64,000 nucleotides of DNA from Agelas oroides. Taxonomy: Eukaryota; Porifera; Demospongiae; Agelasida; Agelasidae. A program made the translations under genes and the position numbers. Positions 1,169 to 55,492 of this stretch are shown here, piece by piece (the first letter of the stretch is position 1; the number at the start of each line of letters is the position of its first letter). Location of the stretch: assembly GCA_949130485.1 (NCBI GenBank), contig OX422194.1, positions 4,166,699 through 4,230,698 on the forward strand. The letters are read 5' to 3'. The notes beneath the pieces were generated by a model. It did not search any database. It saw only the letters and a program-made list of their open reading frames with translations, and was not told the DNA's origin.

Positions 1169-2453
1169 GGTGGTCAAAAGACTTATCTCCCACTACAAAC
1201 GCAACGGAATAGAGATAAAATCTGGAAAGTCAACTCCAATGCATCTTGCATGTGAGAATGGTCAAGTGGAAGTTGTTAAGACAATTGCCACAATGGCACC
1301 ACAGTGGATCAATTCCAGCGATGAAGATAATGATATGAAAACACCACTTCATGTTGCATTGGAGAAAAACTACATAGGTATTGTCAAAGTATTAGTGATA
1401 CAAAAAGCTAAACTGTGTTCTACAAGAAATGGAATCACTCCAATTCATATGGCTGTTCAGAAAAGGAACATTGAGGTGGTGAAAACTCTTCTGTCAGCAT
1501 ACCCTAATGAGATAAATTGCACTGACAACAAAGGGCAAACACCATTGCATTATGCTGCACAACATTGTGGAGATCATCCAGAGATTGTTACAGAACTTAT
1601 TAAAAGGTAAGCACTCACATTCTGAATTGTGCGAGATGGTAATCTGATGTACAGCACATTCCTGTTTTAGTGGAGCTGACATAGGTGCATTGGATAAAAA
1701 GAACTACACACCACTGATGGTAGCAGCAGCTTGGGACAAAGATGATTTATTCAGAAGAATGATGGATGAAGACAGTGCATCTGTGCATAAAACACTATTC
1801 CAAGCTGCAAAGTTGCCTGATCTTAATACTATAAGGGTAAGTGAATATCTATAGTCTGTATATGTTTTCTGCACCATTTTACTAACTTAATGTCATGATT
1901 TATAATTATGCTCCCTTAACAACCACCAGTTGATTTTAAGAACAGCCCCTGGAAGACGTCTGTGTTATGAATGCAAAGATGAAGAGGGCAACACTGTGTT
2001 ACACATAGCTGCAAGTGCTGGTACAGCTAGAGTGATCGAGCACATATTAGAATGGAAGGATGAGATCAAATGCGATGTGAAAAACAACGAAGGGAAAACA
2101 CCGATGCACTTGGCTGCTGAAAATGGACATCATGAGTAAGTTGTTACCACTAGTTATTGTACGTGTTTCTTTCAGAGTTCTATATATGACATCTGTTTTC
2201 CTATAGGATACTGACACAATTGATAATGTGGGATGCTGCAGTTGTAGAAGCTAGAGATAGCAAGGGATTCACTCCACTACATCATGCATGTGAAAAAGGA
2301 GTCTTGGCTGTTGTGGAAGCTTTCAAATCGCAGTTGGAAGTTGAAGATATACGTGAGATCCAAACTTCTGATACTGAAAATACTCCACTGCACATTGCAT
2401 GCATGAGTGGAGACAGTTCTCTTGACATAGTGAAATATCTAATTGAACAGAAT
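728..2453 (+). repeat. Tandem duplicate, left copy (homogenised tract)
   Basis: This stretch matches 8051-9795 almost base for base, through exons and introns. The offset is 7,323 at the start and 7,343 after a 20-bp length difference near 990/8312 (AGGAAGTAGTAGTCCCACTC is present only on the right); one more base differs near 2161. Exon A1 differs from A3 by one residue (Asp to Asn). Identity stops abruptly inside exon A2 after 2453, and beyond that the copies are only paralogous. Confidence 0.85.
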
Positions 2454-4651
2454 GCCAATGTCAATGCTACAAACATGAATGGAGAGACTCCACTACATGT
2501 CAGTGCTAGTAATGGTTTCACAAAGCTCACACAAGAACTGCTGAGAAGAAAAGTGAATGTTGATGTTCAGAATACTTGGGGACGCACTCCTCTTATCTGT
2601 GCTGCTATGAATAACCAAGAGCCAGTGATTTTATTACTGCTTCCAAGGTAAATTTACATAAAATGTTTTGTACAGTATTTTCTCGATCAGACGTTACAGC
2701 TACTATTCAAGGGCAGTATCTATTTGAGGGTGGCATTTATTAACCCTTGGCGCGCATGCGCGAGGGTTACAGTAGTTGTCCTGTGTGTCTGTGTGTCTGT
2801 TTGTCCGTTTTCTCTATTCTGCCTTCTCGCGCTTTTAGGCATCCAACGAGAGGTATCAGCAGCTACAGCGTGGAAAATGCAGTAAAATTAAAAAGCCGTT
2901 TTCTCTAAAACTGCTTGGTTCAAAAGTTAGAAGCGTTAACTTATAAACTTACGGCGACTAAGTCAGCCATTTTCTTCACGTGCAATGTTTCCGTATACCT
3001 CTCCGTAACACGTACGTAGCGGTAATGTGTGATCACGTGACTTGGAGCACGTGGTATAGTGTTTTCCGTCGAACGTTTGTGACTGTCTTTTACGAGAGGT
3101 TCAGAAAGGTATGCCCACAGTGTAATACCGTAGTGCATGCAATGGAATGCAATAGGTATATGCATCTGAGAAAGGTATGCACACAGTGTAATACCGTGGT
3201 GCACGTGAAGAGATCAGTTTGTGACTGTGGCCATGCCTTCGCATTGAAGAAAGGAAAGCACAGTGTACTGCTGTTGGGGACCCTGAGAACGCAATGAAAC
3301 GTAGAAAAGCCTTACTGTCTGAGGAAGGGTTATTAGTGGGGAAAGAGAGAGACAAAGTCCGCAAAACGAGTAAGACAGCTTCTGAAACACGTGAGCAGAC
3401 TTTGCACAGCCTGTGCCACAGGTAAGAACAGAACCAAACACATCTGGCAAGCATGACAGCCTCTATTGTTCACGAGACAGTGATCGATTCTAGTCAACAC
3501 ACAAGTACAATCACATGCACTGCTGCGCTGAGGGTTTGGCACTTCAGTGCCTTTCATTCCTTTGGCGTTCCATGGATAACATTAATTAAGTACTATTGCA
3601 TACGTATGAAAGTGGCCAAGACACAGCATTGCCATAATGTGAAAACTGCTTAGAGGCTCATAGGCTGGAAGTAGTACGTACAACCTTACTGGCAGTCCCG
3701 CTCAGAAGTGGCAGCAACTTGTCGTGGAACACAAATGGCTTTAGTGCTAGCTTGGTGACTGTTGTCAATATTGTTTGTAGACTTGTTCAAATAGTCTTGT
3801 CCCAGGCCTTTCCCAGATTTTATCTAGCAACCATGCAGAAAAACAGCTGCGAGAGAAAATCTGAGGGGTGGCCTAGGCACAGAGCTAGTGTTCATGTATG
3901 TGGTTCCAGCTACTATTTGAGGGTGGGAATTAATTATTTTAGCACTCCTGATTGTGCAGCTACTGTTTGCAGGGAGCAAGGGCAGCATCTGATTAAGATA
4001 ATACAGTATTTAATTGATCGCTACATATCTATCCAGATCAAGTTTGAGGAAGTCTGTAGTCAGTGCAGTGAAGCTAGCACAGACTGAAGTGGTGTCTAGA
4101 CTTCTTAAAGCAAGCAGTGACAGTATTATGAAGAAAGAAGTGTTCGCAGCTATCTGGGACAATGATATTGAATTTATACAGGTACCACAATTGTTATGAA
4201 GTCTTGATTCAACAGTTTATTAAAATACATCTTGCTACAGTGTGTATTATAGCCAGTCTTAATGATATGCTTGAGACAACTATTACTGGTTCACCCTGCT
4301 AGATTGTAGCTGACCAGACAGGAACCAAGTACCTTGCCAAGCCCATTAGTGATGATGGCAACACTCCACTCCACTATGCTGCTTTCCATGGACGTGTTGA
4401 AGCTGTTAAAATTCTTCTTGGAACTAGACCTAAACCAAAGGTAAATTAGCTGAAAGCCTGTTTTATTGATCAAACTGTATTTGTTGTTTTCTCTGCCTCT
4501 TCAGCCTTGTCTCATTATTATGTGTACTTGCCCTGTTTCATAATCACTAGAGCTCATGGTGGTCAACTAGAAACCAAGAAATCAAAGTTGATGCTGAGAA
4601 TAAACATTGTCATACTCCATTATGCCTGGCTGCTGCGAATGGACATGCTGA
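1169..4651 (+). CDS. TRPA-like gene, ankyrin block I (exons A1-B1-C1-A2-B2-C2a-C2b)
   Basis: Exons 1169-1606, 1671-1836, 1930-2135, 2207-2647, 4037-4181, 4303-4440 and 4551-4651. A-type exons carry four clear ankyrin motifs (for example STPMHLACENG, KTPLHVALEKN, ITPIHMAVQKR, QTPLHYAAQHC). B-type exons carry one degenerate repeat ending in an 'LFQAAK..' helix. C-type exons carry two (NTVLHIAASAG, KTPMHLAAENGHH). The intron before 4037 is 1.39 kb, against 62 bp in the duplicate, and holds a decayed transposon-type reading frame. About 14 repeats in total. The block ends in phase 2 (GHA-E), which fits the acceptor at 8511. Confidence 0.82.
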
Positions 4652-7600
4652 GTAAGATTCACATTACTGCTGCATGAAGGCGATATCTCAATGGAGTTAG
4701 ATGTCTTCTTACCCTGGTACATGTGTTACAGATCTGATCAGAGAGCATGGTACATTGCACGTGAGGCTGTTCTTGTGCAATTTTTCGTACTGTGTGATAT
4801 CTCCTAAATGGTGCTGACGTGCACATGGGTTAAGATTTGTCAGCATTGATGCAGTATGAATATCAAAGGGCCATGAATATGATTTAGGCAACCCTGAGTG
4901 AGCCCACACTAGGGAGTTGAACGACGGATTCTCTCTCTCTCTCTATCTCTCTCTTCTCTCTCTCTCTATCTCTCTCAATATAGTATCTCATACTGATTCT
5001 GTAAGTTGGTTTAGACTGTAATTTAATGCAACCACACACTCTGCAAGCTACTAATACCAGCATGAGCAGTGTGGGTGAAGATGGCTACAAGAGACGCTTG
5101 GGAGGAGTAGCTGGAGCATGAGCATCTAGTGTACAAGGGCTGAAAGTTGTGGAAATAAACCTGGGTACTTAGAGTAAGTTAGCAATCATCAGACGACAGG
5201 TATATTCGGACACTCAAACGCAGAGGGAAAACTGCATAAACATTCGGCGATACCACAAGGCTGTAGTGGAGGTACGCGGTACCTGGTGTACCAAAAATGA
5301 CGCCCGCGCATTGTTTCCTGTTGGCGCTAGAAGCGATAGAATGGCCGTCCAAAAAACATCAATATTCGGAGAAGTGCATCTATTTTCAGACACTGTTGTT
5401 TGTGCCTTCTCTGCAGCTGCTTTTGGAGAGATTTTAGCATCGATACGATGCCCCTAGACCTCCCCAATTCGCAATATATTTTGGTAGCGGTAGCTGCTTT
5501 GAACACTCAGGCTACATGCTGGTAGTTGTCCGGTGTTTGTGCGTTGAGTAGTTCTCGAGATATTGCACGATATCGTTTGAACTCACCTATTTATACTGCA
5601 CATAAATCAACCAGCGTACTTTATGAAAAGAAACATGAAATATATTTATATCTCGAGAACTACTCAACACACAAACACAAGTACAAGCATGTAGCCAAGA
5701 GCCTGTAGATTCTACTGATACTTCAACTTGTTTGAAGACAACACGGTAAGAAACGACAAATTTCACTGTCTGATTATTGATCGAATCGGACTGGCCCATG
5801 TTCAGCTGCGCCCCTGAGTGTTCAAAGCAGCTACCGCTACCAAAATATATTGCGAATTGGGGAGGTCTTGGGGCATCGTATCGATGCTAAAATCTCTCCA
5901 AAAGCAGCTTCAGAGAAGGCACAAACAACAGTGTCTGAAAGTACATACACTTATCCGAATATTGATGTTTTTTTGGACGGCCATATTATCGCTTCTAGCG
6001 CCAACAGGAAACAATGCACGGGCGTCATTTTTGGTACACCAGGTACCACGTACCTCAGCTACAGTCTTGTGGTATCGCCGAATTTTTACACAGTTTTCCC
6101 TCCGCGTTTGAGCGTCCGAATATAGCTGTCGTCCGATAATTGCTAACTTACTCTACAGAACATAAAAGATGGGAGAGATTGATCTGAATAGGTCATGGTG
6201 TATTTAGCATTGGCATGGTGACTTTCAATGCCTCTCCTATTTGTGTAAAAACTGCATGACAAGCCAACTAGTGTGTTCAGAGTCACAGCAATCAGCAGGA
6301 GACCAGACTTAATCCCTGTTATCTACAGACATGCATGATTTGTATGCTGTAATCTGGTAATGCACTGATGAAGCCTTAGCTAGCCAAACAATGCTGCTCT
6401 GTATTGCTCATTCAGGCTCACCCCACAGTGTTCTACAAAAACCTACGGTGGCCCAGAAGTACACAAAACGCGTTTTTGAAATCCGGGTTTGACGACGTTT
6501 CGTTTAATTCGACGTTCGCAAAAATGAAGTTTACGGTATCATTTACGGTCGCATGGTGCGGTCACCGATCACTCAGTGCGCTCACCGATCTGCCCCGTGC
6601 GGTAACCGATCACTCAGTGCGCTCACCGATCTGCCCTGTGCGGTCACCGATCTTAGCGTGCGGTCACCGATCTGCCCCGTGCGGTCACCGATCTGCCCTG
6701 TGCGGTGACCGATCACTCAGTGCGGTCACCGATCTGCCCTGTGCGGTGACCGATCACTCAGTGCAGTCACCGATCTGTGCGGTGACCGCACAGGGCAGAC
6801 AGGGCAGATAGGTGACCGCACTGAGTGATCGGTGACGGCACAGGGCAGATCGGTTAGCGCACGGTAAGATCGGTGACCGCACAGGGCAGATCGGTGATCG
6901 CACTGAGTGATCGGTGACCGCACAGGGCAGATCAGTGATCGCACTGAGTGATCGGTCACCGCACAGGGCAGATCGGTGATCGCACTGAGTGATCGGTCAC
7001 CGCACAGGGCAGATCGGTGAGCGCACGCTAAGATCGGTGACCGCACAGAGTGATCAGTGACCGCACGGGGCAGATCGGTGAGCGCACTGAGTGATCGGTG
7101 ACCGCACCATGCGACCATAATAATACCGTAAACATCATTTTTGCGAACGTCGAATTAAACGAAACGTCGTCTAATCCAGATTTCAAAAACGCGTTTTTTG
7201 TACTTCTGGGCCACCGTAAAAACCTCATTGCATGTTTTTCCACAAATAGACATAAGTTTTGTAGGACTATACATGTATGGTTACTTGTTACAGTGTAAAC
7301 TGGCTGTTAACTAAGAGGCTTCATTCCTGGTTTAAATCAACCACAATATTAGTTGATACTGACCTTGTGCTTAGTTAGAGCCACAAATATATTCTCAAAA
7401 AATTGAATTTTGGCACTGAATTACATCATACTACATTAGCCTATGTATGGTGGACAATTTTCATGAGAAAGTGTTAGTCCAAATTTAGCTGTATTGTTGC
7501 TGTGGCTTCCATATATATGTACCAAGAACCTCATTTCCTGACTATAAGAAATCTGATCGATGATGGTGACCTTAAATATTTCCTTTGAAAAGCCACCACA

Positions 7601-10600
7601 CTAACAAACGAGATTATTATTACAACACATGATCTATCTAATGCATGAATTTCAATTCATGGGTGGGTCTAACTTAATTTGATACATGCCTACTAATCTT
7701 TTTGCAAGTTTTCCACACTACTTGTGGTACAGCAGATTGCAAAAGTCTTGCAACACGCAAGCGGAACAGTGGAAAACCACAATTGATTTACCACGAATGA
7801 ATCTGATTATCTTTCCCCCCTCAGCATGCCCTTCCTCTCTGTCAAGCACAATAAGTGGTTTTCCACTGTTCAGCTTGCTTGCTGCAAGACTTTTGCAATC
7901 TGCTGTACAGATACAGACTGTATCACTGCAAAAGCACTTAGGTTACTTCAACCACATTTTAGGTTGTCTCAGTTGCATCAGTGTGACCAAGGAATGCTAC
8001 CAAATAGGTTTCTTGAAAATTCATCAAGGAGCTTCTTCTTTAGTTACATTGCAGTATTGAAACATTGTCACAGTGGACAAGTTGTGGATCTTACGAAGAG
8101 TGTAGGGCTAGCTGACAAAACTGTAGGTCACCAGCATAACACCTTGTGGATGCTAGACACAACTCTCTGTGACTTACCGCTCGTGTGCAAGATGGAGAGA
8201 TTGAGAAAGGGAGGCTTTCAATGAACCCTTTTGTCATTGGCGGTCAGCAATGAGTTAAATTTGAAAAGTACATTGTGCTTATCCTGCAATGGGTGGAGAC
8301 AGGGGCGGCATAGCTTCAGGAAGTAGTAGTCCCACTCTTACTCTCTTGCTGTGCAAAGTACAGCAGCTGATATTTGTGGTATAGCGTGACTATGCTTCCA
8401 ATTACTAAGATCTGTAGTTAACTTTGTATCGCCTTAACAGTTTAAAGTATTCACTACATTGAGTCACTAAATGACATAATGAATGCTATGCTACCATTTC
8501 TATAACTTTAGGGTGGTCAAAAGACTTATCTCCCACTACAAACGCAACGGAATAGAGATAAAATCTGGAAAGTCAACTCCAATGCATCTTGCATGTGAGA
8601 ATGGTCAAGTGGAAGTTGTTAAGACAATTGCCACAATGGCACCACAGTGGATCAATTCCAGCGATGAAGATAATAATATGAAAACACCACTTCATGTTGC
8701 ATTGGAGAAAAACTACATAGGTATTGTCAAAGTATTAGTGATACAAAAAGCTAAACTGTGTTCTACAAGAAATGGAATCACTCCAATTCATATGGCTGTT
8801 CAGAAAAGGAACATTGAGGTGGTGAAAACTCTTCTGTCAGCATACCCTAATGAGATAAATTGCACTGACAACAAAGGGCAAACACCATTGCATTATGCTG
8901 CACAACATTGTGGAGATCATCCAGAGATTGTTACAGAACTTATTAAAAGGTAAGCACTCACATTCTGAATTGTGCGAGATGGTAATCTGATGTACAGCAC
9001 ATTCCTGTTTTAGTGGAGCTGACATAGGTGCATTGGATAAAAAGAACTACACACCACTGATGGTAGCAGCAGCTTGGGACAAAGATGATTTATTCAGAAG
9101 AATGATGGATGAAGACAGTGCATCTGTGCATAAAACACTATTCCAAGCTGCAAAGTTGCCTGATCTTAATACTATAAGGGTAAGTGAATATCTATAGTCT
9201 GTATATGTTTTCTGCACCATTTTACTAACTTAATGTCATGATTTATAATTATGCTCCCTTAACAACCACCAGTTGATTTTAAGAACAGCCCCTGGAAGAC
9301 GTCTGTGTTATGAATGCAAAGATGAAGAGGGCAACACTGTGTTACACATAGCTGCAAGTGCTGGTACAGCTAGAGTGATCGAGCACATATTAGAATGGAA
9401 GGATGAGATCAAATGCGATGTGAAAAACAACGAAGGGAAAACACCGATGCACTTGGCTGCTGAGAATGGACATCATGAGTAAGTTGTTACCACTAGTTAT
9501 TGACGTGTTTCTTTCAGAGTTCTATATATGACATCTATTTTCCTATAGGATACTGACACAATTGATAATGTGGGATGCTGCAGTTGTAGAAGCTAGAGAT
9601 AGCAAGGGATTCACTCCACTACATCATGCATGTGAAAAAGGAGTCTTGGCTGTTGTGGAAGCTTTCAAATCGCAGTTGGAAGTTGAAGATATACGTGAGA
9701 TCCAAACTTCTGATACTGAAAATACTCCACTGCACATTGCATGCATGAGTGGAGACAGTTCTCTTGACATAGTGAAATATCTAATTGAACAGAATACCAA
9801 TGTTGATGCTACGAACCAGAATGGAGAGAATCCTATACATATCTGTGCCAGTAAAGGTTTCATGCAGCTTACACAAGAACTGCTGAAGAGAGGAGCAAAT
9901 GTTGATGTTCAGGATACTTGGGGACGCACTCCACTAATCTGTGCTGCAATGAGTGACCAAGAGCCAATGATTTCGTTGCTGCTTCCAACGTAAGTTTAAT
10001 TTAATGTATTTCATTGATAACGACATTATTATTATAATATCTGCTGCCCAGGTCAGGTTTGAGGAAGTCTGTAGTCATTGCAAAGAAGCTAGCGCAGACA
10101 GAAGTTGTGTCTAAACTTTTTAAAGCAATCAGTGACCATCTTATGAAGAAAGATGTGATCGCAGCTATCGTGGACAATGATGTTAAATTTATACAGGTAG
10201 CAAAATTATAATTATAGTTCTACTAATTACCTATTACTAATTACAAATTGACAAAAATAATCAAAATGATTGTGCGAAAATTGTTGTTAATTTTAACATT
10301 TGATTCCAGCATATGTCCTGTTGAAGAATGTTTAGGCAGAGTAGTAATGTGTTTTAGAGTAGTGATTGAAGGTGGTTATGAAAACTGACTTTTTTACGTA
10401 GATTAGAGCTGTAAAGACTTAGTAGCTGGTATTCATATGAAACTTTATAAACACTCTTTACCACAACAGATTAAATTCTTTTATTAGATTCTAGCAGACC
10501 AGACAGGGACCAAGTTCCTTGCCAAACCTGTTGATGATGATGGTAACACTCCGCTACATTTGGCTGCTATCTATGGACACCTAGAAACTGTTAAGACTCT

Positions 10601-13600
10601 TCTTGGAATCAGACCTAAACCAAAGGTGAATATTCTGAATTCAGAACATTTCCATATTTTGTTATGATACAAACATCAGCATAGCGATCTTATCACTCTA
10701 GAAACTATGGCAATTTAAAGACCCAGAAATCCTAGTTGATGCTGAAAATAAACATCATGAAACTCCTTTACGCCTGGCTGCCAAGAATGGACATTTGCAG
10801 TAAGTTAATTGATGATTTAGATGTAATAAACATGTTTGTTGATACCAAAATAGACTGTCCATGAGGATCACTAAAATGCCTAGCTATTATGTTTATGGCG
10901 GGGACTAAGCAATGAAGAGCACAAATTTTTCCAAAGGGAGAAGATATAGTAAGATCTTGTGTATCTTAACTGTGTTCAGATACAAGTGTTGAAAGATAAC
11001 GTGCTAATCAAATGCAGGATTGCTTGTTAAAAAATGGCTTGCTTTGCATTTGGCTGCATTTTTTACCTCATTTATGTGATATTCCTGAATAGAAACGAAA
11101 TAATGTTCTTTTGTGTAATTGATTGCATCACCACATTCAAAGTTCACACTTCCATTTAAGGGCTGGGCTCATACACTTCTTGATGCGTGAATATCTGATG
11201 AGTGTATATGAGCCCCAACTTAATGCCAATTAAACTCTGTACGGGTTATTTTACATAATTGTTTGAAGGGTTCTGGAAACTTCCTTAGCTGTGCTGTGGT
11301 TGCTATATGAAAACATATAATGGCACTGGCTATGTGTTAGATGTTAGTTTTTAGCAATGCTATTTTATGGCACCTAGGGCAGTGATCATTCTAGTTAACT
11401 ATCAGTGTGATTCTGAAGTTGAGAATGGTGATGATCCTTTGAAAAGTGCGCTGTTCCAAGCTGCCAAGAAGCCAGAAAACATCCAAGCATTGAAGGTAAT
11501 GATAAAAATGCATATTCATTCAAATTCTTATTTCCCTTTTGCTCAACTGTCTTTCACTACTTTTATCCCTCAAACACCACAAACATAATACAAGCTTATA
11601 AGTGAGCTCTGTGAGTTCTCAGTTTGTTATCATTCACGGGATGATCATGGCAATACTCCGCTACATACTTCTGCTTCCTATGGTAATCTACAAGCTGTAG
11701 AGGTGTTTTTGGAGTGGCAACACAGGTATCATGGAGACAAGAAAGCTGAATTGATTTGCAACAATGAGGGTAAAACATCTGCTCACCTTGCCGCTGAATT
11801 TGACAACTCTAGGTAAGAATGAGTATTAATTAACATTGTAAGTAAAAGTAACAGCATTTTTGCTTATGTCATTTATCTAGGATTTTGGAAGTTCACATTA
11901 AGTATAACCTGAATGTTTTAATGGTGAAAGATGGAAATGGAAGGACTGTTCTGCACCTTGCATGCCAAAAGGGACACCTGAACATTGTGCAGGTGATCGA
12001 ATCTCAGTTGGACTCTGAAAAACTGCAAGAAATATATAAGGTTTGTGACAATGAAGGTAATACCGTACTGCATTTGGCATGTCAGTCCCAAAAGAAGACT
12101 GTTGTCAGACATTTGGTTGATAAGAGGAGAACCCACATTGATGCCAGAAACAACTCAAAAGATGAGGAAGCACCCATTCATGTGGCTGCACAGTTTCAGT
12201 CTACTGATATTATTGATATTCTGTTAGACCAAAGAGCAGATATTGAAACCAAAGATGCTAATGAGTGTACTCCACTTCACCATGCTGCAAGATGTAATCA
12301 GAAAGATATGGTTCGGCATCTATTTGAAAGGTAACCTTATTGTTGGTCACACAAAAATTCTAATGCTTGTGTCATGTGTACTTATTTTTGGTACTTTAGA
12401 CATGGAGCAAATCTCACTGCTGAAAATCGAGACCACATCACTCCGCTAGTTTTGGCAGCTCAGAATGAATGCACTGGTACCTTTCAGTTACTGATGCAGC
12501 TCATGGATCAACCAATCAAAACCATTTTTAAAATGATGGATTTAATGGTTGACCATGCTCAAATGTTGACAGTAAGCGTTTGGAAGTTTTACTTTTGTGG
12601 AAACTACTTTTACTATTTAATTTAAGGGCATAGTGCGCTCCTCACACAATAAGTTATGAGCAATAATTTTTCAAAAAATAAGTTCTTTCAGTGTGTTTGT
12701 GTGTTTACATTCTACTGGGGTCATTTAACAAATAGATTGTCATGTATCAATTCGTGATACATAATACCAAGCTTCCTATTAACGTTTTAACACTTCATAA
12801 ATTGCTTATTGTATGCCTTCATGTACTGAATCTAGTTTATGCTCAGAGATGGTTCTTGCGGAAGGAGGATTTGTGATGCAAGGAATGACTGTAAGAATAC
12901 CTTACTTCATGTGGCTGCTCTCCATGGAAATACTGAAGCTCTAATAGCTCTATTGGATGAAGGAGTTCCACCTGCAAGCAAGAATGATGAGCATAAAACA
13001 CCTATGCATTTAGCTGCTGTAAATGGACATGCTAGGTAAGGGAATAGTACACAATATGGTTGTATCATTATGACAGCTTTCCTTTAATTGACATTTAGCA
13101 TTGTAAAGGAGATGATTTCACGTGAACCTTCCTTGGCGAAGAATATAGATCTTGAAGGAATGACTCCTCTCCACTGTGCTTGTCAACAAGGACACTTAAA
13201 TGTTGTTAAAGCTCATGAGTCACTGCTAGAAATGAAGGAAATATGGGCTGCTCGAAATAATGACTCTGACACCCCACTCCATCTCAGTTGTGCAAGTTTG
13301 AGTGTGCAGATTGTCTGTTATCTCATTTCAAATGGAGTAAATATTAATGCTAAAAATAACAAATCACTGACTCCACTTCACATTGCTACACAAAACAGTC
13401 ATGTGGGTATTGCAGAAATGTTGTTGAACGAGAGAGCTAAAGCCAACTGCCAAGACATGAAAAGGTACACTCCTCTTCACTACGCTGCAGAAAGGAACTC
13501 CAAAGATTTAGTTCATTTATTGTGCACAAAGTAAGTTTTTTCTGTTTTTCAGTACACTTTTACAATTTTAAGAATTCATCTGTGTAATTTCTTTGCATTT

Positions 13601-25600: not shown

Positions 25601-28600
25601 TAGCTCAGAGTCTTGGTCATCCTGGGGTGCCTTGCTAGTAAATTCTTTGACACTTAGAGTAAGTTAGCAATCATCGGACGACAGGTATATTCGGACACTC
25701 AAACGCGGAGGGAAAACTGCGTAAACATTCAGCGATACCATAAGACTGTAGCTGAGGTACGTGGTACCTGGTGTACCAAAAATGACGTCCGCGCATTGTT
25801 TCCTGTTGGCGCTAGAAGCAATAAAATGGCCATCCGAAAAACATCAATATTCGGAAAAGTGTATGTATTTTCAGACACTGTTGTTTGTGCCTTCTCTGAA
25901 GCTGCTTTTGGAGAGATTTTAGCATCGATACATTGCCCCAAGACCTCCCCAATTCGCAATATGTTTTGGTAGCGGTAGCTGCTTTGAACACTCAGGGGCG
26001 CAGCTGAGCAAGGACCAGTCCGATTCGATCGATATCGGACGGTGAAATTTGTCATTTCTTGCTGTGTTGTCTCCAAACAAGTTGAAGTCTCCACCATATT
26101 AGCATCAGTAGAATCTACAGGCTCTTGGCTACATGCTGGTATTTGTCCGGTGTTTGTGCGTTGAGTAGTTCTCGAGATATTGCATGATATCGTTTGAACT
26201 CACCTATTTATGCTGCACATAAATCAACCAGCGTAGTTTATGGAAAGAAACATGAAATATATTTATATCTCGAGAACTACTCAACGCACAAACTCCGGAC
26301 AAGTACCAGCATGTAGCCAAGAGCCTGTAGATTCTACTGATGCTAATATGGTGGAGACTTCAATTTGTTTGGAGACAACACAGCAAGAAATGACAAATTT
26401 CACCGTCCGATGACAAATTTCACCGTCCGATATCGATCGAATCGGACTGGTCCATGTTCAGCTGCGCCCCTGAGTGTTCAAAGCAGCTACCGCTACCAAA
26501 ATATATTGCGAATTGGGGAGGTCTTGGAGCATCGTATCGATGCTAAAATCTCTCCAAAAGCAGCTTCAGAGAAGGCACAAACAACAGTGTCTGAAAATAC
26601 ATACACTTTTCCGAATATTGATGTTTTTCGGACGGCCATTTTATCGCTTCTAGCGCCAACAGGAAACAATGCACGGGCGTCATTTTTGGTACACCAGGTA
26701 CCACGTACCTCAGCTACAGTCTTGTGGTATCGCCGAATGTTTACGCAGTTTTCACTCCGCGTTTGAGTGTCCGAATATACCTGTCGTCCGATGATTGCTA
26801 ACTTACTCTAACTATGCAAAGAGTGCATCAATGAAAATTACACATGACTTACTCATAAGTTACACAATCTTGTTTGAAACAGGGGGGCCTATGCCCCCCA
26901 GGCCCTCCTTTAAAATTGCCAGCACCTAGAGCTAATACACACAGGAAACAAAGATGGCAGCCATTTTGTTCTCCTGGCCGTGAATTGTGCTTGCATGATG
27001 ACATCATAAAGGAATGCCTGCCCATGACACATCATTAAAATGGCCAGAAATTACTGTTTCCATGCTAAAATGCTCCCATTACACCCCAAGAAGGTTTTCT
27101 TATTTCAAGAAAAGAACAATTTTAACCTATCTCAAATGGAGAGTAAATCCCGTTAACTTCATGATTTGTGGCTAAACTTATCTTTGCACTTTTGCCCCTG
27201 AAAAAAACACATTTTCCTGGCAATGCTGGGGAATCCAGCCTGTTCACTTTGCTGATGATTAACTATCAAGCAGCATACCGCATTTGGACTTTTAACTTCA
27301 AGTAACTTATCCGAACACTTTTTCTGAATAAGATGACTGTTGGCAGCCATATTCTGAAGCCACATCACGTGATGCTTAAATAATTTAGGAGAAGCACAAC
27401 AAGTTACAAGTTTTGAGTCTCTCCTATGTATTTTAATGTTCATATCAAGCACTACAGCTAAATGTTTCCAAAATCACAAGTTTTGCTCTCTTGCTTTGCA
27501 ACACTGTAGCTAGAACAGTATGAAATTAAATGATATCAAATCTGGCTTCTGCTAGATTAGATCCATGAGAAATTCCAGGAACTGAAGTTCTGATGAGAAT
27601 AGATCCATCAATGTAATGTAAGCACTTTTTCCAAAAAAGCACTAGCAATGCTTGGGAGGCCCACTCACCCCAGCATTTGATGCTTCAACTTGCTTGCAGC
27701 ACTAAGGCTTTCTCAGAAGTGTGCAGGTGCAGGAAACTTCTGCTGGCTGATCATCTGTTGGTCCGACAACCACTTTTGCTCGTACTTGTATTGATATAAA
27801 CACTGTTAGGATGCACTAAAACACCTCTGCCAGTGACTTCACAACTATTGTTTTGAAGCGTACCGTAGCATAGGTATCTAACCTAAGTATGTGCTAAAAC
27901 AGTGAGAGCCCACTCAGGTAAGAAAGACACTATGTATGGATTAGGTTCGCATGTCAATGTTTTCATACCCATTGCACTTTTCAGGAAGTTGTAAGTCCCC
28001 AAAAATGAGCACGTGACGAAAAACGTAAGTTTGCCGTAACAGGTAGAAATTACCTTATCCCCACTGTCAACATGACTACCTTAACATGGATTGGTGTAGT
28101 GCCAGGGCCCACATCTCAGGACTTTACCACTTCTGGAAAAGTGTAGTGATCCCTGGGTGGTCTCTTGTGAAAGTCACTGTTTGAAATCAGTACAGTTTGA
28201 ATGTGTACAGTTTCATAATTCAGCTTGTATACAGTTTTGATAAGAATGCTTCCTAGTGCACTGAAAAGCCTCTTTCTGGCTGACTTTGCATTTTGTTTTT
28301 CCAAGAATGCCTCATACTACCTACCCTTCCACTAAATTGGATTCACTCAAAATAATGAGTGCAGCAGCCTTCTGCATATTTGGATTAGCAAAGATTCCAA
28401 GAATTGACTAGAATGGATATACTATAAAGTAGTTGAGTGAGTGTAGGTGGCCTGCATGATGCAAAATGCAATAGGTGTAATTGAGCTTTTGTGCGGCAGC
28501 TCCAATTTAAGGTGGCTGTGATTTGATTCTTATAAATTGCTGCATAGAGAGAAGAATGTCCCTCAAGCACAAAACAACCTGTTTCGATTAAACAAGTAGC

Positions 28601-31600
28601 TGTCAAACTAACTCAGCAATAAGCCAGAAGGTGCCAGTTCATGAAGCAATAGATGATGTGGGACTACTTCAGAAATTACAATAGCCATACTCAATACTCT
28701 GTCTAGAATCCTGAGCCAGTCATTTATGGCTGACAAGAAGCCAAACTGGAAGCAGGATAGGCAAAAGAGGGTTGGTGTTTTGAGACCAGAGCTGGATCAT
28801 CTTTTTTAAATGCAGGGGTAATATTCAATAGAAACAGTTGTCCAACAGTGATTGATGACAGGAGTTGGAAATGGTAGCTGCAGTATGTTGCTGGATATTG
28901 AGTGTGAGCCTTTTGCCACACCAGGACACAAGGTTTTGAGCAGGTGTTTAATCAGTGATTCATATTTGTGTTGGGTGTTATTACATTGCACATACTGGGA
29001 GAAGAAGTTTTAAAACAGGGGCTTATCTTGGTATGAGGACCAACCCTTGTGTCACTAGCTGTATGCTCAGAGACATTTTTTTGGCGTAATGAAAGAGAGG
29101 AATAAAGGGACCAGAGTCTTTCAGAGAGTTGGCAAAATTTCTGAAGTTAGTAGACTTGGATACCTGAAGTCAGCTGTTCCTAGCTTTTTTTCTGTATGTA
29201 CGGGTTAGACGAAACTAGAAACTGCTCCTTCCTCATAATGACTTTTTGTTAATCATGCATATTTGTGATGTATTCTAACAGTGTGTATTGTAGTTACAAA
29301 TATAGCTTATCCCACCCACTTTTTGCAGGTAAAGAATCGGCGTTCTGAGCTACTGAAGCATGAACTGGTGTCCACACTCCTGAGGCACAAATTTACCAAG
29401 TTTGGGGCAATATTTTATTTTGCTGATGTTTTTCTCTATTCCCTTTTTCTGATGTTTTTGACATCGTACGCTCTCATTGTCTCAACACCTTTGGATGATA
29501 TCTGTGAGTTTACAAATACAGCAAAGAAGAAACTAGGTGTAATGCTTTACATGATATTTTTATGCACAAATAATGTGAATACTAAACTTATTTTATGCAC
29601 AGGCACAATGAATACTTCTGACCATCCTTCCAATGTCACACAGTTCATGTGTCCAGGTTGTTATTTATTCTTAGCTTATTTCTCTATGATCATTAACTGC
29701 TATATTCTATATGGTTCTTGCAGATTGGAGGCAGTATTCTTCAACTTACATTCTTGCTACTTTCACAATCATATTTGCTGCTATTAGACACTTACTGCAG
29801 TTTGGAGAACTCTGTATGTTAATAATACGATACTACAGTCGCTTGAAGGACTGCAAGTGGCATAACAGTTGGAAGGAATTTCTTTCTCGATCATTCTTTG
29901 GAACAGTCAGATTCCTCATGTTTGTGTTTGCTATTGCCTTTGCTGCTGTCTTCCATTTCCCATGCCCTTGTGTTACAAATGGCCAATGGCAAGTTGGAGT
30001 GCTAGCTGTGTTTCTTGGCTGGATTAACATGATCTCTTATATCAGATTGGTGCCACGGCTAGGAGTGTACGTCCTGATGTTCCAAAATGTCATCTACTCC
30101 TTTCTCAAGATGTTACTCTTGGCAGTATTTCTGATTATAGCATTCGGACTGGCTTTCTACATGCTCTTCAAAACCCCTTCACAAGTGGTATGCAATCCCC
30201 CCCCCCTCCACTTTTAGGAGGTAGTGTGACAATGTAGATACTTGCTTTGTGTTTCCTTCCAGCGCACTCCCTTTGCCACCCCTGCACGTGCTCTTATCAA
30301 AACCATGACAATGCCACTTGCAAACTTCGACTTTGACGGGTTGTTTCACCTGAGTGACGATGATAATGAAATTGCATATGTGGGGGCCTCCTACTTGATG
30401 TGGATTGTATTTGTGATCATCCTGGCAATCCTCTTTCAAAATCTACTTGTAAGTCTCTTCAATGGAGATTGACTTTGTGTTAAATTTTCTGTAAGCAGCT
30501 TATACATTTAATTGCCTTAATTTACAGACTAGTGTGGCTGTTGGTGACATCCAACAAGTTCGACAAAATGCTTTGCTCAAGCAGCGTGAACTCCATGTGA
30601 GTGTCTTGACCTATAGGGTGTAATTGTAACTCAACTCATGAAATTAACAATCACTCTTTGATATTGTGTGTTAAAGATATACCACAGGCTAGCGTGGTTA
30701 CAGTATATACACGAGGCAGTTATTCAATTAGAATAATTGCCTCGTGTATATCCTGTAAGCAGCAGTTCCACCTGTATGTCTCATGACTATACATGTTGCC
30801 TGTACTATCTCTGAAGAGGTCTCTGATTATGCAGGCGATATATAGTGTCATCGCACCTATCATGGCCCATAAAAGTTAAATGCCACAATATTTGAGACTC
30901 TTCTTCACTTTCCAATTAGTTCAGTTTTTGCAGTACTTACGGTATTAGTATTGCTGAGTTCCAACAGTTGCAAACATGCTGTTAGATGTACCGTAATTAT
31001 TCTAATACTACATATGATCCATAAGAAATTCAATTTCAGGAATTTATCATGAATCTAATTCTGCGTAAGCCGGAGTCTTAATTTATTTACACTGCTCCAA
31101 TTTAGTGTAAGATAATGACTGCAGCCATAGATAGTAGAGTGACACCACTCTACTATCTATGCTGAAGTTAACCTCCAACCTTCGTGGCCTTCCTACCAGT
31201 CTCACAAACAGGTGTACTATACTGTCTTCATAGTTTCCAGGAAAGAACAGCTATACACTCATCTAGCCACACTTGGTGCTGCCTTCATCGGTCGCTGAGT
31301 TTGGCGATATGTACACAATTCAAGGAAAAGCCAGCTATACACTTATAAGGCTTGCAAAAGCACACCTTTGTGTTTCCACGTATTGTAATTCTGCACACAA
31401 TTCTAGGAAAAAATAGCTATCCACTTAGCTTACAAAAACAGGCCTTTGCGTTTTCCCGTATTGTGATTCTGCACACAATTCTAGGAAAAACAGCTATACA
31501 CTTACCTAACTTACGAGAGCAGGCCTTCACTTTTTCACGTATTGTGATTCTTATGCAACGTAAAATCTAAGAAATTCAATTTCAGGACTTTTTTTATGAT

Positions 31601-32771
31601 GAATCCAATCTAACGTAAGGTCACAACCTAATCATTTTTTAAGCTTACATACAATGAGAATAATTATGGTAGTTATCATTTATTTTAGCCTCATTCTCAC
31701 TTCCATTTTTGATCTCTCCCTAAGTGAGTATATAAACTGGATCTAGAATGTCTACTAGATTCATGTGAGTGATGTCAACTTCTACACACCCTCTCTCCAG
31801 GCTGAAAAAAGATGAATATGGCCTTCATGTAGTTGAAATGGAGTGTAGCATTACGTTATTCTTGTTTGCAGGTGGAACTGCTGCTGAACCTTGAAGAACT
31901 GGGAGTGGGTGATTCAGATGAGCAACAAAAACCTCACCAGACATATAGAATCCTTGAATGGTTATGGGAACTTACTAGTGGTGCAAGTGTAGTGGTAAGT
32001 TATGCATTAAAGCCGGAGCTAACATTTTTATTTATAATAATACTTCTGTAATTTTGGCCAGCTTAAAATTGTATGCATTAAGTGGAGCATTCCTGGTTAA
32101 CTCTACGTATATACCATCTGATGGCACTATGGTTGCTGATACTTTCCTAACATCCTTTTCTTTTCTCCCAACATGCCATTAGGAGCAAGTGCATCCACTC
32201 GAACACAAAATTGAACAAGCACTTAGTGAAATTGATGGTGTCAAGCGCGTACAGAGTGAGCATTCCAGAAAACATGAGGAGACAGAAAGCCTTGTCAAGC
32301 AGGTGGTAGGCCAGCATGAAGTAAATGGAAGCAAACTTGACAATATCAAAGAACAGCTTGAAAAATTAACCACCGATAAGAGTGAGAATAAAATGCAAAG
32401 TCACAGTAAGGTGGAAGGAAGCAAGGAGGGACAATACAGCTCTCACTCAGGGATTGGAGACCAGCTTGGAAAAGGAAATGAAGAAGGGGAAGAGATGGAG
32501 ACAGAAACTGACAATGAGGATCAAGGAAACCAGGAAGAAGAGCTCAGCTCCCAATCAGTAAGTTTGTTCAGTAACAGTACATACTGTGCATCTCCCTATC
32601 CTTGCCCAGTCATAACACACTATTCATTCAACACAGGAACGGATACATCCAAAACTGGAAAGCTTCATTCAACAGACATTAGTAAGGCTTGCTAACATTG
32701 AACGAAAACTTAATGCTAAATTCCAACATTTTCCTGCTGCTGCTCATACAGATGACAATGCACCTAAATAA
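1169..32771 (+). CDS. TRPA: TRPA-like cation channel with giant ankyrin array (5' partial, 44 exons)
   Basis: A transient receptor potential channel of the ankyrin (TRPA) type, a plasma-membrane cation channel with a cytosolic ankyrin spring. I chained 44 exons whose GT-AG boundaries and phases all agree and which contain no stop; they sum to 10,060 nt (3,353 residues plus stop TAA at 32769-32771). About 65 TPLHxAA-type ankyrin repeats are followed by the TRPA linker (NHPLAIM at the S1 border), six membrane segments, and the sequence NLLTSVAVGDIQQV after S6, which matches the TRPA family post-S6 motif. Ordinary TRPA1 proteins have about 1,100 residues and 14-17 ankyrin repeats, so this is about three times larger even though it is incomplete. 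Each exon group is described separately. The start codon and promoter are outside the window. The alternative, two genes with a truncated first copy, is less likely because the last exon of copy 1 (4651) is in phase with the exon at 8512. Confidence 0.85.
2740..2790 (+). repeat. Short GC-rich inverted motif in TRPA intron
   Basis: A palindromic motif, AACCCTTGGCGCGCATGCGC followed by GAGGGTTAC, opens a different sequence composition inside the enlarged intron 2648-4036 and may mark the edge of an inserted element. A loosely similar AACCCCTTCACGGATGCATG occurs at about 21841. Function unknown. Confidence 0.35.
3100..3530 (+). pseudogene. Decayed zinc-ribbon / 'ASET-EQTLH' repeat protein fragment
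   Basis: The reading frame shows two near copies of a KVCxQCNTVVH motif (at about 3102 and 3171), the second followed by CDCGHAFALKK, a four-cysteine zinc-ribbon pattern. After a one-base frame change come AMKRRKALLSEEGLLVGKER and KTASETREQTLHSLCHR, then a stop at about 3422 and, in the same frame, EQNQTHLASMTAS. This order (zinc ribbon, then basic A-S-E-T-x-E-Q-T repeats) recalls large mobile-element-associated protein families I remember from sponge genomes; that link is from memory. It lies inside TRPA intron 2648-4036 and is broken, so it is not a functional gene. Confidence 0.5.
4885..5050 (+). repeat. Dispersed repeat with internal microsatellite (copy 1)
   Basis: Begins GAGTGAGCCCACACTAGGGA, passes through a (CT)n tract at 4931-4977 and ends near GTAATTTAATGCAACC. 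The same layout, with a different microsatellite, occurs at 60345-60490 ((ATT)n) and, reversed, at about 20590-20730 (GCAA-rich). The shared ends around a variable simple repeat suggest one non-autonomous repeat family. Confidence 0.5.
5172..6153. mobile_element. TA-flanked fold-back DNA element, copy 1
   Basis: Termini are inverted copies of (TA)GAGTAAGTTAGCAATCATC and both ends are bounded by TA (5170-5171, 6154-6155). Arms of about 450 bp mirror each other around an AT-rich centre near 5640. Runs of open frame in it are the arms read through, not a transposase. A second copy is at 25667-26808. The TA duplication suggests a Tc1/mariner-type non-autonomous element; no transposase was seen. 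Confidence 0.75.
6445..7217. mobile_element. Fold-back element with inverted minisatellite arms, 8-bp TSD
   Basis: Starts ACGGTGGCCCAGAAGTAC and ends with the inverse (GTACTTCTGGGCCACCGT). It is flanked by a perfect 8-bp duplication AAAAACCT (6437-6444 and 7218-7225). Terminal arms of about 115 bp give way to tandem units of about 20 bp (GCGGTCACCGATCTGCCCTG and GCGGTCACCGATCACTCAGT) that switch orientation near 6785. The 8-bp duplication fits hAT or P-type insertion, and the tandem-repeat arms resemble fold-back elements. No coding capacity. Confidence 0.85.
7728..7908. mobile_element. Small fold-back (MITE-like) element
   Basis: Arms of about 54 bp, starting GTACAGCAGATTGCAAAAGT and ending with its inverse, are separated by about 75 bp. 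No clear target duplication was found, so this could also be a simple inverted duplication. Confidence 0.5.
8051..9795 (+). repeat. Tandem duplicate, right copy (homogenised tract)
   Basis: Counterpart of 728-2453. It contains the 3' end of the intron between blocks I and II, exons A3, B3 and C3, and the 5' part of A4. Its right limit falls inside exon A4, where the sequence starts to diverge from A2 (NTNVDATNQNGEN here, NANVNATNMNGET in A2). Confidence 0.85.
8512..10799 (+). CDS. TRPA-like gene, ankyrin block II (A3-B3-C3-A4-B4-C4a-C4b)
   Basis: Exons 8512-8949, 9014-9179, 9273-9478, 9549-9989, 10052-10196, 10488-10625 and 10702-10799. They correspond one to one with block I. A3, B3, C3 and the first half of A4 are nearly identical to their counterparts, while B4 and C4 are clearly diverged (SGLRKSVVIAKKLAQTEVV against SSLRKSVVSAVKLAQTEVV). 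So the duplication is older than its 5' part looks. All phases match and there is no stop. About 14 ankyrin-type repeats. Confidence 0.82.
11378..12330 (+). CDS. TRPA-like gene, ankyrin block III (B5-C5-A5)
   Basis: Exons 11378-11495, 11595-11812 and 11881-12330. The first is a shortened B-type exon (ending LKSALFQAAKKPENIQALK) that joins in phase straight onto C4b, so an A-type exon is missing from the regular order. C5 has two repeats (NTPLHTSASYGN, KTSAHLAAEFDN). A5 has four (RTVLHLACQKGH, NTVLHLACQSQK, EAPIHVAAQFQS, CTPLHHAARCNQ). Introns are 70-580 bp. Confidence 0.8.
12400..13530 (+). CDS. TRPA-like gene, ankyrin block IV (B6-C6-A6)
   Basis: Exons 12400-12571, 12836-13035 and 13099-13530. 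B6 begins HGANLTAENRDHITPLVLAA, the standard B-type repeat. C6 carries NTLLHVAALHGN and KTPMHLAAVNGHA. A6 carries MTPLHCACQQGH, DTPLHLSCASLS, LTPLHIATQNSH and YTPLHYAAERNS. This is the regular module of seven repeats in three exons. Confidence 0.82.
13606..14619 (+). CDS. TRPA-like gene, ankyrin block V (B7-C7-A7)
   Basis: Exons 13606-13783, 13886-14085 and 14182-14619. B7: GANLSAEDFDFFTPILRAAA and a conserved 'ENPAFKVL' tail. C7: HTSLHIASEHGN and ETPMHLASAKGM. A7: RTPLHTACQHGQ, NTPLHLACKTGS, ETPVHTAAQHES, YTPLHHAAENNQ. Exon sizes (178, 200, 438) equal those of block VI, showing descent from one amplified exon triplet. Confidence 0.83.
14917..15944 (+). CDS. TRPA-like gene, ankyrin block VI (B8-C8-A8)
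   Basis: Exons 14917-15094, 15163-15362 and 15507-15944. B8: GANIYAEDQTLCTPVLTAAA. C8: KNSVLHVTAREN and KTPMHLAAEMGHH, opening with the recurrent FLITDSKWGSKL motif that marks C-type exons. A8: KNPLHLACQQKH, NTPLHLACMGGN, STPVHTAAKYGS, RTPLHLAAECNE. Confidence 0.83.
16021..17183 (+). CDS. TRPA-like gene, ankyrin block VII (B9-C9-A9)
   Basis: Exons 16021-16252, 16562-16662 and 16731-17183. B9 is enlarged (232 nt against the usual 178). C9 is only 101 nt and keeps one ankyrin repeat (FMINDENWGEKL..HNLLHMAAKKG) where its relatives have two; its donor at 16663 is GTATGT. A9: MTPLHLACQDGQ, NTALHLACEGGV, EAPIHFAARYGR, CTPLHHAARNDQ. Phases agree. Confidence 0.8.
17254..19654 (+). CDS. TRPA-like gene, ankyrin block VIII (B10-C10-A10a-c)
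   Basis: Exons 17254-17428, 18263-18471, 18540-18683, 19197-19343 and 19487-19654. B10 and C10 (LMVTDSKWGSQL, NIPLHIAAKHGN, KTPLHMAAEGGH) are typical. The last A unit is split into three exons, with NTPLHLACRNGH, NTPLHLACMRNG and QTPLDLAYQEKD plus LIGQGANVG. The split form probably keeps the ancestral exon layout next to the channel domain, while the intronless A exons upstream are the amplified form (inference). Confidence 0.8.
18030..18205. repeat. Dispersed repeat shared with window start
   Basis: Diverged copy of about 25-205 (shared words include CATAGATGCCAAC/CATAGGTGCCAAC, CAGAAACAGGCACT and ATGCCTTAATGCACCTGA). It lies in the intron before exon C10. Identity of the element is unknown. 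Confidence 0.5.
19655..20920. other. TRPA intron (1.3 kb)
   Basis: No coding exon recognised. It holds a reversed copy of the dispersed repeat of 4885-5050 at about 20590-20730 (CTAGTGTGGGGCTCGCTCAG) with a GCAA-rich simple tract at 20641-20670. Short near-repeated GTGCCAGG(A/G)GAAGGCTT words occur at 20189-20260. Confidence 0.55.
20921..24191 (+). CDS. TRPA-like gene, post-ankyrin linker exons
   Basis: Exons 20921-21084 and 23995-24191. They encode FCAFTRDIAMKIIESKYWRK..TTPMRELIKEMPG and DVAEKVLDRCTESKEYSYEF..NHPLAIM. The pattern 'LI..MP.VAE.VLD.C' followed by a beta-rich stretch and 'NHPL.IM' is the conserved pre-S1 region of TRPA channels, which couples the ankyrin spring to the pore. The separating intron (2.9 kb) has no exon that I recognise. 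Confidence 0.82.
21085..23994. other. TRPA intron (2.9 kb), low complexity only
   Basis: I see no coding exon. It contains a poly-G run at about 22669-22683 and a short TTTG repeat near 22849-22864. The rest looks like unique AT-rich DNA. Confidence 0.6.
24740..24823. mobile_element. 84-bp miniature inverted-repeat element
   Basis: Bounded by TA on both sides (24738-24739, 24824-24825). It begins GCCTCGTTCCCAGGC and ends GCCTTGGAACGAGGC. The terminus is shared with the 569-bp element at 48971-49539, so both belong to one family. Confidence 0.7.
25667..26808. mobile_element. TA-flanked fold-back DNA element, copy 2
   Basis: Same termini and arms as 5172-6153, bounded by TA (25665-25666, 26809-26810). 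It is somewhat longer and includes a 17-bp tandem duplication of GACAAATTTCACCGTCCGAT-type sequence at about 26393-26430. It has no transposase. Open frames over 120 residues on both strands are the mirrored arms, not separate genes. Confidence 0.75.
29329..30448 (+). CDS. TRPA-like gene, channel domain exons (S1-S6 and pore)
   Basis: Exons 29329-29503, 29603-29656, 29724-30187 and 30263-30448, all in phase. S1 covers FGAIFYFADVFLYSLF; a short external loop exon follows with NTSDHPSNVTQF (N-glycosylation-type NVT). S2 begins YILATFTIIFAAIRHLL; S3 FFGTVRFLMFVFAIAF; S4-S5 linker around WINMISYIRLVPRLGVY; S5 LKMLLLAVFLIIAFG. The pore loop reads ALIKTMTMPLANFDFDGLF and S6 is ASYLMWIVFVIILAILFQ. 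Where TRPA relatives usually show a Gly-Asp or Gly-Glu pair in the filter, this protein appears to have Ala-Asn. Confidence 0.85.
30528..32771 (+). CDS. TRPA-like gene, TRP helix and C-terminal coiled coil
   Basis: Exons 30528-30596, 31872-31994, 32183-32557 and 32637-32771. The first encodes TSVAVGDIQQVRQNALLKQR, matching the helix after S6 in TRPA channels. Then comes VELLLNLEELGVGDSDEQQ, a charged heptad-rich stretch (EHKIEQALSEIDGVKRV, KLDNIKEQLEKL) likely to form the tetramer coiled coil, an acidic segment (EEGEEMETETDNEDQ), and a short end APK-stop at 32769. No AATAAA was seen directly downstream. Confidence 0.83.
30705..30750. repeat. Short near-perfect hairpin
   Basis: TATACACGAGGCAGTTATTC is followed after 6 bp by its inverse with one mismatch, inside TRPA intron 30597-31871. 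It may be a tiny MITE or a structural relic. Confidence 0.5.
31127..31161. repeat. Short hairpin
   Basis: GATAGTAGAGTG and its inverse CACTCTACTATC flank a short loop in the same TRPA intron. Confidence 0.45.
31235..31555 (+). repeat. Tandem repeat, unit about 80 bp, three to four copies
   Basis: Successive units start at about 31311, 31393 and 31472, each with CACACAATTCTAGGAAAAA followed by AGCTATACACTTA and TCACGTATTGTGATTC. A partial unit precedes at about 31235. Intronic and non-coding. Confidence 0.6.
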
Positions 32772-33989: not shown

Positions 33990-48249
<14,260 letters not shown>

Positions 48250-48582: not shown

Positions 48583-48660
48583 GGTGGTTCTCCATGTCAC
48601 CATTGCCTAGATTACATCATCTTTACATCATAATTGCATCATGTTTACAACATAATTAGT
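48583..48660 (+). repeat. Left terminal inverted repeat of composite element
   Basis: Unique terminal portion, starting GGTGGTTCTCC and running into the satellite at about 48660. Its mirror is 58670-58747, with differences only near the ACATCAT/ATATGAT words. Confidence 0.85.
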
Positions 48661-51978: not shown

Positions 51979-52098
51979 GCTGCAAGGTTGGGGATGCTGC
52001 TGTTCTCTCAGCAACTATACTGACTGCCACAGTTTGAAGTTCGCGACTCCTTCATCTCACTCCATCTCCGAAGCGCTCCATCTCCGAGGCGACCCGTC

Positions 52099-52818: not shown

Positions 52819-52859
52819 TTGATGCACTTGCATAGTACTTGTCATCTATGATGCACTTG

Positions 52860-55038: not shown

Positions 55039-55490
55039 TGGAGTCTTGTGCAATGTTATGGACCACAGTGGTCTAAGAGAGAAAGATTGGGGCTTGCGGG
55101 CCATCAGTTAGAATGCCATGGATGGACGTATCGTGGGCCATCAGTTAGAAGGTCATTGATGGACATATCGCATAGGCCTAAGGGGCTTGAGTCGGGGTTT
55201 GTGGGCCCTTAACTGAGACACTGCCGTTGGTGGGTACATGGATAGACCAGTGGGGTCATGAACTAGGCCTTGGGCCCTCAGTTCAAATACTTTCGTGTCG
55301 TCACTAGGAGCTGTGAGTACAGATCTGAGGAGATCTACAAGCTTGTGCACTGAGTACCCTCGCAAGTGTTAGTCTTGTGGGGTTTATGTTGACTGCTGAC
55401 CCTCACTATTCACATATACCTGTGATGGATACTATTATTTTAAGCGTAATTAATGCACAGCAGCAACAACAAATCCACTGATAGCATCCA
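55039..55490. other. Non-coding linker in YR element
   Basis: Between the RT-RNase H frame and the recombinase. Contains short repeated words (GGGCCATCAGTTAGAA twice, GGGCCCTTAACTGAG and related). No gene seen. Confidence 0.5.
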
Positions 55491-55492
55491 TT

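Follow-up and report, generated by a model that had tools for sequence, protein, structure and literature searches.

How long an ankyrin array can be carried by a TRP channel is the question that this locus raises. Published counts give NOMPC 29 repeats and Drosophila TRPA1 17 (PMC10073219), contrary to an account in which TRPA1 has the longest array of the superfamily (PMC9582847); in the excerpts that our literature search returned, no TRP channel was described as carrying over 29 ankyrin repeats. The preliminary description of the DNA analysed here, a stretch of 64,000 nucleotides from the sponge Agelas oroides that we refer to as the window, had proposed a TRPA-type channel with about 65 ankyrin motifs and a missing 5′ end, which would be the longest such array known on a TRP channel. 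We consider it likely that the locus is one gene, encoding a TRPA channel with at least 66 canonical repeats in the window and probably 81 overall. It lies in a cluster of sister genes with arrays of unequal length, and its own array contains a tandem duplication of modules.

Exon chain and ankyrin repeat count

We rebuilt the gene model exon by exon and checked it by script. The resulting chain of 44 exons (1169–32771, forward strand; 10,060 nt) reads as a single open frame; it counts 3,353 codons, including an incomplete one at the start, and closes with a TAA at 32769–32771, which reproduces the start, end and length first given for a single phase-consistent chain. All internal junctions have intact AG...GT splice sites and there are no internal stops, compared with 141–235 stops in each of 200 random joins of matching lengths. 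The joins A11c–L1, L1–L2 and L2–S1, which span introns of 1.3, 2.9 and 5.1 kb, are continuous when compared with the TRPA of a Geodia sponge, as judged in an alignment for L1–L2 and by eye for the other two. The chain, with the ankyrin cores assigned to each part, is as follows.

A1 1169–1606, B1 1671–1836, C1 1930–2135 (+): module 1, 7 cores
A2 2207–2647, B2 4037–4181, C2a 4303–4440, C2b 4551–4651 (+): module 2, 6 cores
4652–8511 (+): intron between modules 2 and 3, 3,860 bases, with foldback-type repeats
A3 8512–8949, B3 9014–9179, C3 9273–9478 (+): module 3, 7 cores, near-identical to module 1
A4 9549–9989, B4 10052–10196, C4a 10488–10625, C4b 10702–10799 (+): module 4, 6 cores, paralogue of module 2
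B5 11378–11495, C5 11595–11812 (+): module 5, without an A exon, 2 cores
A6 11881–12330, B6 12400–12571, C6 12836–13035 (+): module 6, 7 cores
A7 13099–13530, B7 13606–13783, C7 13886–14085 (+): module 7, 7 cores
A8 14182–14619, B8 14917–15094, C8 15163–15362 (+): module 8, 7 cores
A9 15507–15944, B9 16021–16252, short C9 16562–16662 (+): module 9, 6 cores
A10 16731–17183, B10 17254–17428, C10 18263–18471 (+): module 10, 7 cores
A11a 18540–18683, A11b 19197–19343, A11c 19487–19654 (+): module 11, the last ankyrin block, A exon in three parts, 4 cores
L1 20921–21084, L2 23995–24191 (+): TRPA linker
S1 29329–29503, S2 29603–29656, S3 29724–30187, S4 30263–30448 (+): channel exons, six hydrophobic regions, filter L-A-N
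T1 30528–30596, T2 31872–31994, T3 32183–32557, T4 32637–32771 (+): post-S6 region and C-terminal tail, TAA stop

The array in the window comprises 66 ankyrin cores, in line with the roughly 65 motifs first proposed; 59 were found by a fixed pattern and seven by eye (at residues 90, 397, 635, 942, 1298, 2372 and 2695, the last being weak). The same pattern yielded 1–16 cores in shuffled arrays (mean 5.8, n = 200) and one core in the 652-residue channel part. A degenerate repeat, additional to the 66, lies at most B/C junctions. We also trained an HMM on 66 strict cores from 25 other TRPAs, which is stricter than the pattern and identified 44, 46, 51 and 57 domains in the 44-exon model at 10, 5, 0 and −3 bits, respectively. 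TRPA1 proteins are described with 14–17 ankyrin repeats, and as the HMM finds 0–15 domains at 0 bits in the 25 TRPAs from which it was trained (12–15 in 15 of them), it probably undercounts. A profile search of the joined model, proposed at the outset as a check, recovered the channel domain as well (PF00520, 25.3 bits, barely over the cut-off of 25).

A six-frame scan of the first 33 kb with the same HMM, using thresholds of 6 and 10 bits, returned 46 domains at 10 bits, while 19 of 20 shuffles (of single bases inside 200-base blocks) gave none and the remaining one gave a single domain; a threshold of 0 bits was useless, with 70–102 domains in 10 shuffles. No ankyrin match above 5.2 bits was found outside the exons in the window-wide scan, and a search for missed ankyrin exons in positions 1–1168, the 3.9-kb intron and the two large linker introns found none.

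The remainder of the window holds other features. A dynein heavy chain gene lies downstream on the same strand (34006–43530), with matches to AAA_8, AAA_9 and the microtubule-binding stalk in the three frames scanned and an AAA_5 match just below its own cut-off. A retrotransposon-like unit at 52024–56102 has a reverse transcriptase match (53101–53796), a weak RNase-H-like match (53800–55038) and, by eye, a frame resembling gag at 52024 that has a CCHC-type motif; a domain scan of its 55454–55729 segment gave no match. Minisatellites with units of about 10 bases in up to 211 copies flank this unit (48658–51320 and 56544–58668), and their open reading frames were rejected as genes because these tracts lack stops in several frames of each strand.

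Module structure, upstream exons and sister genes

The array is composed of recurring A, B and C exons. A exons (about 440 nt) are of phase 2-2 in 12 of 12 cases, B exons of phase 2-0 in 10 of 10 and the last C exons of phase 0-2 in 10 of 10, and two further C exons, C2a and C4a, are of phase 0-0. The three-exon module is phase-neutral, with the same phase at its start and end, so its copying or loss costs no frame. All ten last C exons, four of which come from duplicated blocks, end 11 residues past a core start, such that splicing from C to A completes an ankyrin repeat. Given that A1 begins mid-repeat, as A3 also does, this rule predicted a C-type exon upstream of the chain, which was later found.

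The genome searched comprises 259 Mb in 141 contigs, and the window corresponds to C12:4166699–4230698, window base 1 being C12:4166699. Upstream of it lie 11 further in-frame exons (C12:4141871–4154954): nine of these, u1a–u8 (C12:4151418–4154954), fit in frame and phase, the last of them ending in TPLHLAAEEGHVE as other C exons do, and n1 (4141871–4142267) and n2 (4142332–4142454) are located 9 kb further upstream. Extension in the assembly thus bore out the earlier view that the 5′ end was missing, and since n1 starts mid-codon, at least one more exon is still missing 5′ of it. The extended chain has 55 exons (12,131 nt) and runs through 4,042 complete residues to its stop codon, uninterrupted by any earlier stop. 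It contains 81 cores, 71 by pattern and 10 by eye; this share of by-eye cores, together with HMM counts of 54, 57, 65 and 73 domains at 10, 5, 0 and −3 bits, is a counter-point to our reading.

Introns of 12.9 kb (u8–A1), 9.0 kb (n2–u1a) and 5.1 kb could split this chain into separate transcripts. The preliminary description had allowed that modules 1 and 2 might be a separate truncated gene, in which case they, with or without the upstream exons, would be a truncated gene or relic and the channel gene would begin at module 3 or later, with about 53 cores or fewer. The 12.9-kb intron before module 1 and the 3.9-kb intron between modules 2 and 3 would suit this account, as would the recurrence, at 98% identity before module 3, of the 441 bases that precede module 1; moreover, a long related array at C12:4016302–4081574 (a channel-less gene, a relic or part of another gene) has no channel match nearby, suggesting that channel-less arrays may exist. 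Against it, modules 1 and 2 and the 11 upstream exons that run in frame into module 1 have intact splice sites and neither stops nor frameshifts, A1 and A3 both start within a repeat, and a search of positions 1–1168, ahead of A1, for a start exon (an ATG, a GTRAG donor and a matching phase) found none. Two sister loci, at 4.0141 and 4.2469 Mb, keep n1, the u exons and a stretch like module 1 in this order; the whole set occupies about 7.5 kb, the u exons being separated from the last element by 2.6 kb, and this compact arrangement supports one gene. Four sister loci preserve the order of n1 and the u exons. A separate truncated gene accordingly appears improbable on sequence grounds, and a single gene remains our preferred reading.

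Modules 1–2 and 3–4 form a tandem duplication that includes two near-identical tracts.

728–2453 (+): tract copy 1, comprising sequence ahead of module 1, module 1 itself and 247 nt of A2, exons and introns alike
8051–9795 (+): tract copy 2

The two copies are identical at 1,715 of 1,725 aligned bases, with 21 additional gap columns, introns included. The match stops at base 248 of both A2 and A4; past this point the exons are 79–86% identical and the introns of modules 2 and 4 differ in length by up to 22-fold (1389 vs 62, 121 vs 291 and 110 vs 76 bases). Identity that extends through introns is what two alleles would show, and one may postulate that two alleles or loci were joined end to end in the assembly. 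We regard such an error as very unlikely: it does not account for the divergence of exons and intron lengths past the tract, and a second tandem of both duplicated blocks is present at C12:3907680–3916394 with 94–99% identity. As the nearest channel to this second tandem (3959190) has only 78% protein identity to the present one, the second tandem is not simply the other allele. We read the tandem copy instead as an old two-module duplication that was later partly homogenised. A tree of the modules, with the incomplete modules 5 and 11 left out, supports only the pairs 1 + 3 and 2 + 4.

In the older part of modules 2 and 4, dN/dS is 0.55 (NG86, bootstrap 0.35–0.84), based on 186 codons with 24 synonymous and 53 non-synonymous codon differences after leaving out 18 nt of C2b and 15 nt of C4b; other methods and spans gave 0.48–0.62. 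This value for the array is only moderate, a further counter-point to our reading. Several other repeats occur in and around the gene. Foldback elements with inverted arms that are 92–98% complementary occupy two introns (5170–6155 and 25654–26811), the second having dozens of copies genome-wide at 95–97% identity, and at 6444–7218 inverted ends of 100 nt (94%) surround a 41-base tandem array (6535–7146) that reverses orientation. Dispersed short similarities link the region ahead of module 1 with other parts of the window, 885–980 with 63167–63263 (77%) and 27–198 with 18026–18202 (64%).

A channel query returned 126 matches genome-wide, many of them distant. Six are close copies grouped in about 421 kb of C12: this gene, at 4196421, and five others, at 3959190, 4309995, 4316889, 4352251 and 4380346, which are 74–87% identical to the present channel. 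When DNA of the linker and channel was used to search the genome, the only matches belonged to a repeat family in an intron. Sister array blocks identified by array DNA span C12 3.889–4.378 Mb, all on the forward strand, giving a cluster of about 490 kb, with sister genes at 3.889–3.960, 4.247–4.311, 4.335–4.353 and 4.367–4.382 Mb. The locus that ends in channel 3959190 matches modules 1–4 at 94–99% and modules 5–8 at 96%, and then continues into extra modules, three of which lie in tandem about 5.5 kb apart (3926448, 3931969 and 3937479). Its covered parts contain 98 ankyrin matches of at least 6 bits, all on the forward strand (2 + 11 + 14 + 71), a count that leaves out sequence before 3892000, 3900000–3906179, 3910677–3912619 and 3944895–3957689; 71 of them fall within the 27 kb of C12:3917895–3944894, which includes the tandem units of about 5.5 kb. 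The locus at 4.367–4.378 Mb has 23 ankyrin matches. Judged by these matches, which are counted in DNA and not as spliced exons, array length differs among the sister genes by whole modules, and one of the sisters may have a longer array than this gene. Elsewhere in the genome, distant TRPA-type channel exons occur on C1, C2, C3, C5, C6, C8, C10, C20 and other contigs, and on C3 there are ankyrin matches inside open frames of 5,246 and 5,971 residues.

Channel family and pore

By sequence similarity, the channel belongs to the TRPA family, as had first been proposed, and the other TRP families are more distant. A PDB search placed TRPA1 first (Drosophila, 7ykr, 5.5e-33) and TRPV next (7.8e-5); NOMPC, to which a TRPN channel would be most similar, was absent among the 24 matches at 0.01 or better. 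The N-terminal ankyrin array that marks TRPA channels is present, the pre-S1 linker aligns by eye with TRPA relatives, Geodia being the closest, and a C-terminal tail follows (exons T1–T4). Hydrophobic windows, which we grouped into six regions, are confined to residues 2851–3127 with none before. Drosophila TRPA1 aligns with this protein in the linker, the six hydrophobic regions and the post-S6 region; it differs in its 17 repeats (PMC10073219) and its L-G-E filter, compared with 66–81 repeats and L-A-N here.

We searched 5.8 billion proteins with the channel region, scoring the 8,000 candidates that shared the most words, and recovered 25 TRPA-like hits of 668–1340 residues. Names were attached to 21 of them: 14 of TRPA1 type, three pyrexia, one 'ankyrin repeat protein' and three 'hypothetical protein'. 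The closest relative outside this genome is a TRPA of Geodia barretti (1.7e-63, 30% identity), which is sister to the present channel with support of 98/94 in a tree whose branches are long and in which a single sponge is named; on this one gene, a sponge is the likely source. The 668-residue Geodia gene model starts, by eye, in the last ankyrin repeat, and its filter is T-G-E as opposed to L-A-N. Among long candidates (about 1,844–5,866 residues), 0 of 2,422 reached an E value of 0.001; the search thus found no long TRPA array outside this genome, which is another counter-point to our reading. The proposal that this is the longest ankyrin array on a TRP channel holds against NOMPC, TRPA1 and these long candidates, although the possibly longer sister gene qualifies it within the genome itself. 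When modules 7–10 were used as the query, 7,498 of 8,000 scored candidates matched at 1e-20 or better; ordinary ankyrin proteins with 22–30% identity make up the 120 matches listed. Ankyrin-1 and other long ankyrin proteins have arrays of many repeats but no channel.

The pore differs from that of relatives. In an alignment of 25 relatives, two of which are identical in the channel, 24 carry E at the filter position and one carries D, compared with N in this channel; we did not count this acidic residue, a common TRPA feature, as defining. The preceding residue is A here, G in 20 of 25 and absent in five, and the S6 motif is NLLTS here compared with NLL(I/V)G in 20 of 25. The corresponding filter in Drosophila TRPA1 is L980-G981-E982 (PMC10073219). 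Within the cluster, four of six copies (this gene and three sisters) have L-A-N, and the other two have A-D and are three residues shorter at this point; elsewhere in the genome, two more distant copies retain G-D and G-E. The change was thus inherited within the cluster and does not reflect recent decay. Exon S3 compared with copy 4380346 gives a dN/dS of 0.20, indicating constraint on the channel; this could be computed for one of the five sisters, the others aligning with gaps or differing in length. A decaying pseudogene might be suspected from the lost filter acid, the altered S6 motif and the intronic repeats, but it is extremely unlikely given 4,042 residues without a stop or frameshift, the low dN/dS of S3 and the presence of the altered filter in three sisters. 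By analogy with work on mammalian TRPA1, we infer that a functional pore of this kind would have an altered, weaker calcium preference.

Possible role of the long array

Our favoured explanation for the structure of this locus is that arrays lengthen and shorten through tandem copying, conversion and loss of the three-exon module of about eight repeats. The encoded channel would form a tetramer in which four very long ankyrin superhelices are suspended from the TRPA linker, and these could act as elastic tether and lever, so that force or torque would reach the TRP domain in a manner resembling NOMPC. If NOMPC-type geometry were kept, about 80 repeats would amount to more than two turns of the superhelix. 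NOMPC/TRPN likewise has a TRP pore preceded by a very long ankyrin array at the N terminus, through which it is force-gated, but it has 29 repeats and belongs to another family; it opens upon compression or twist of the array, which turns the TRP domain (PMC8186909; PMC12539804). As a counter-argument, the 17 repeats of Drosophila TRPA1 diverge from the NOMPC path (PMC10073219). A mechanical role for the array is a tentative suggestion to which we give slightly less than even odds.

The long array could instead serve as a chemical or heat sensor or as a docking scaffold that bears no force, roles that have been proposed for TRPA1; we give this possibility about the same odds as the mechanical role. 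The channel family is TRPA, in which heat and chemical sensing are the main known functions of the array and whose ankyrin repeats reviews link to such responses (PMC11526382); variable, converting clustered arrays would suit diversified binding surfaces, and long channel-less ankyrin arrays are common. TRPA sensing is described at 14–17 repeats, however, which gives no reason for about 80, although this is a weak argument.

Sponges have no nerves. They are reported to have lost TRPN and to possess many TRPAs (PMC7385117); another account confines TRPN to Eumetazoa (PMC11526382). Cation-channel blockers stop sponge contractions, as does removal of the oscular cilia (PMC3890488). A broader scenario, which we offer as speculation and think rather unlikely, extends the tether reading to this setting: in the absence of the TRPN lineage, TRPA channels would have been independently built into tethered force sensors with an evolvable tether length. 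Modules would still be duplicated, converted and exchanged between sisters, arrays in one genome would range from a few dozen to more than 100 repeats, individuals may differ, and the pore would no longer be tuned to calcium. Regardless of the role of the array, a TRPA channel with 66–81 repeats, and a sister perhaps longer, would remove the ceiling on array length, and the copying of a phase-neutral exon module would provide a route past it. A cluster of near-identical channels with unequal tethers would then offer a natural experiment for asking if stiffness and gating depend on the length of the array.
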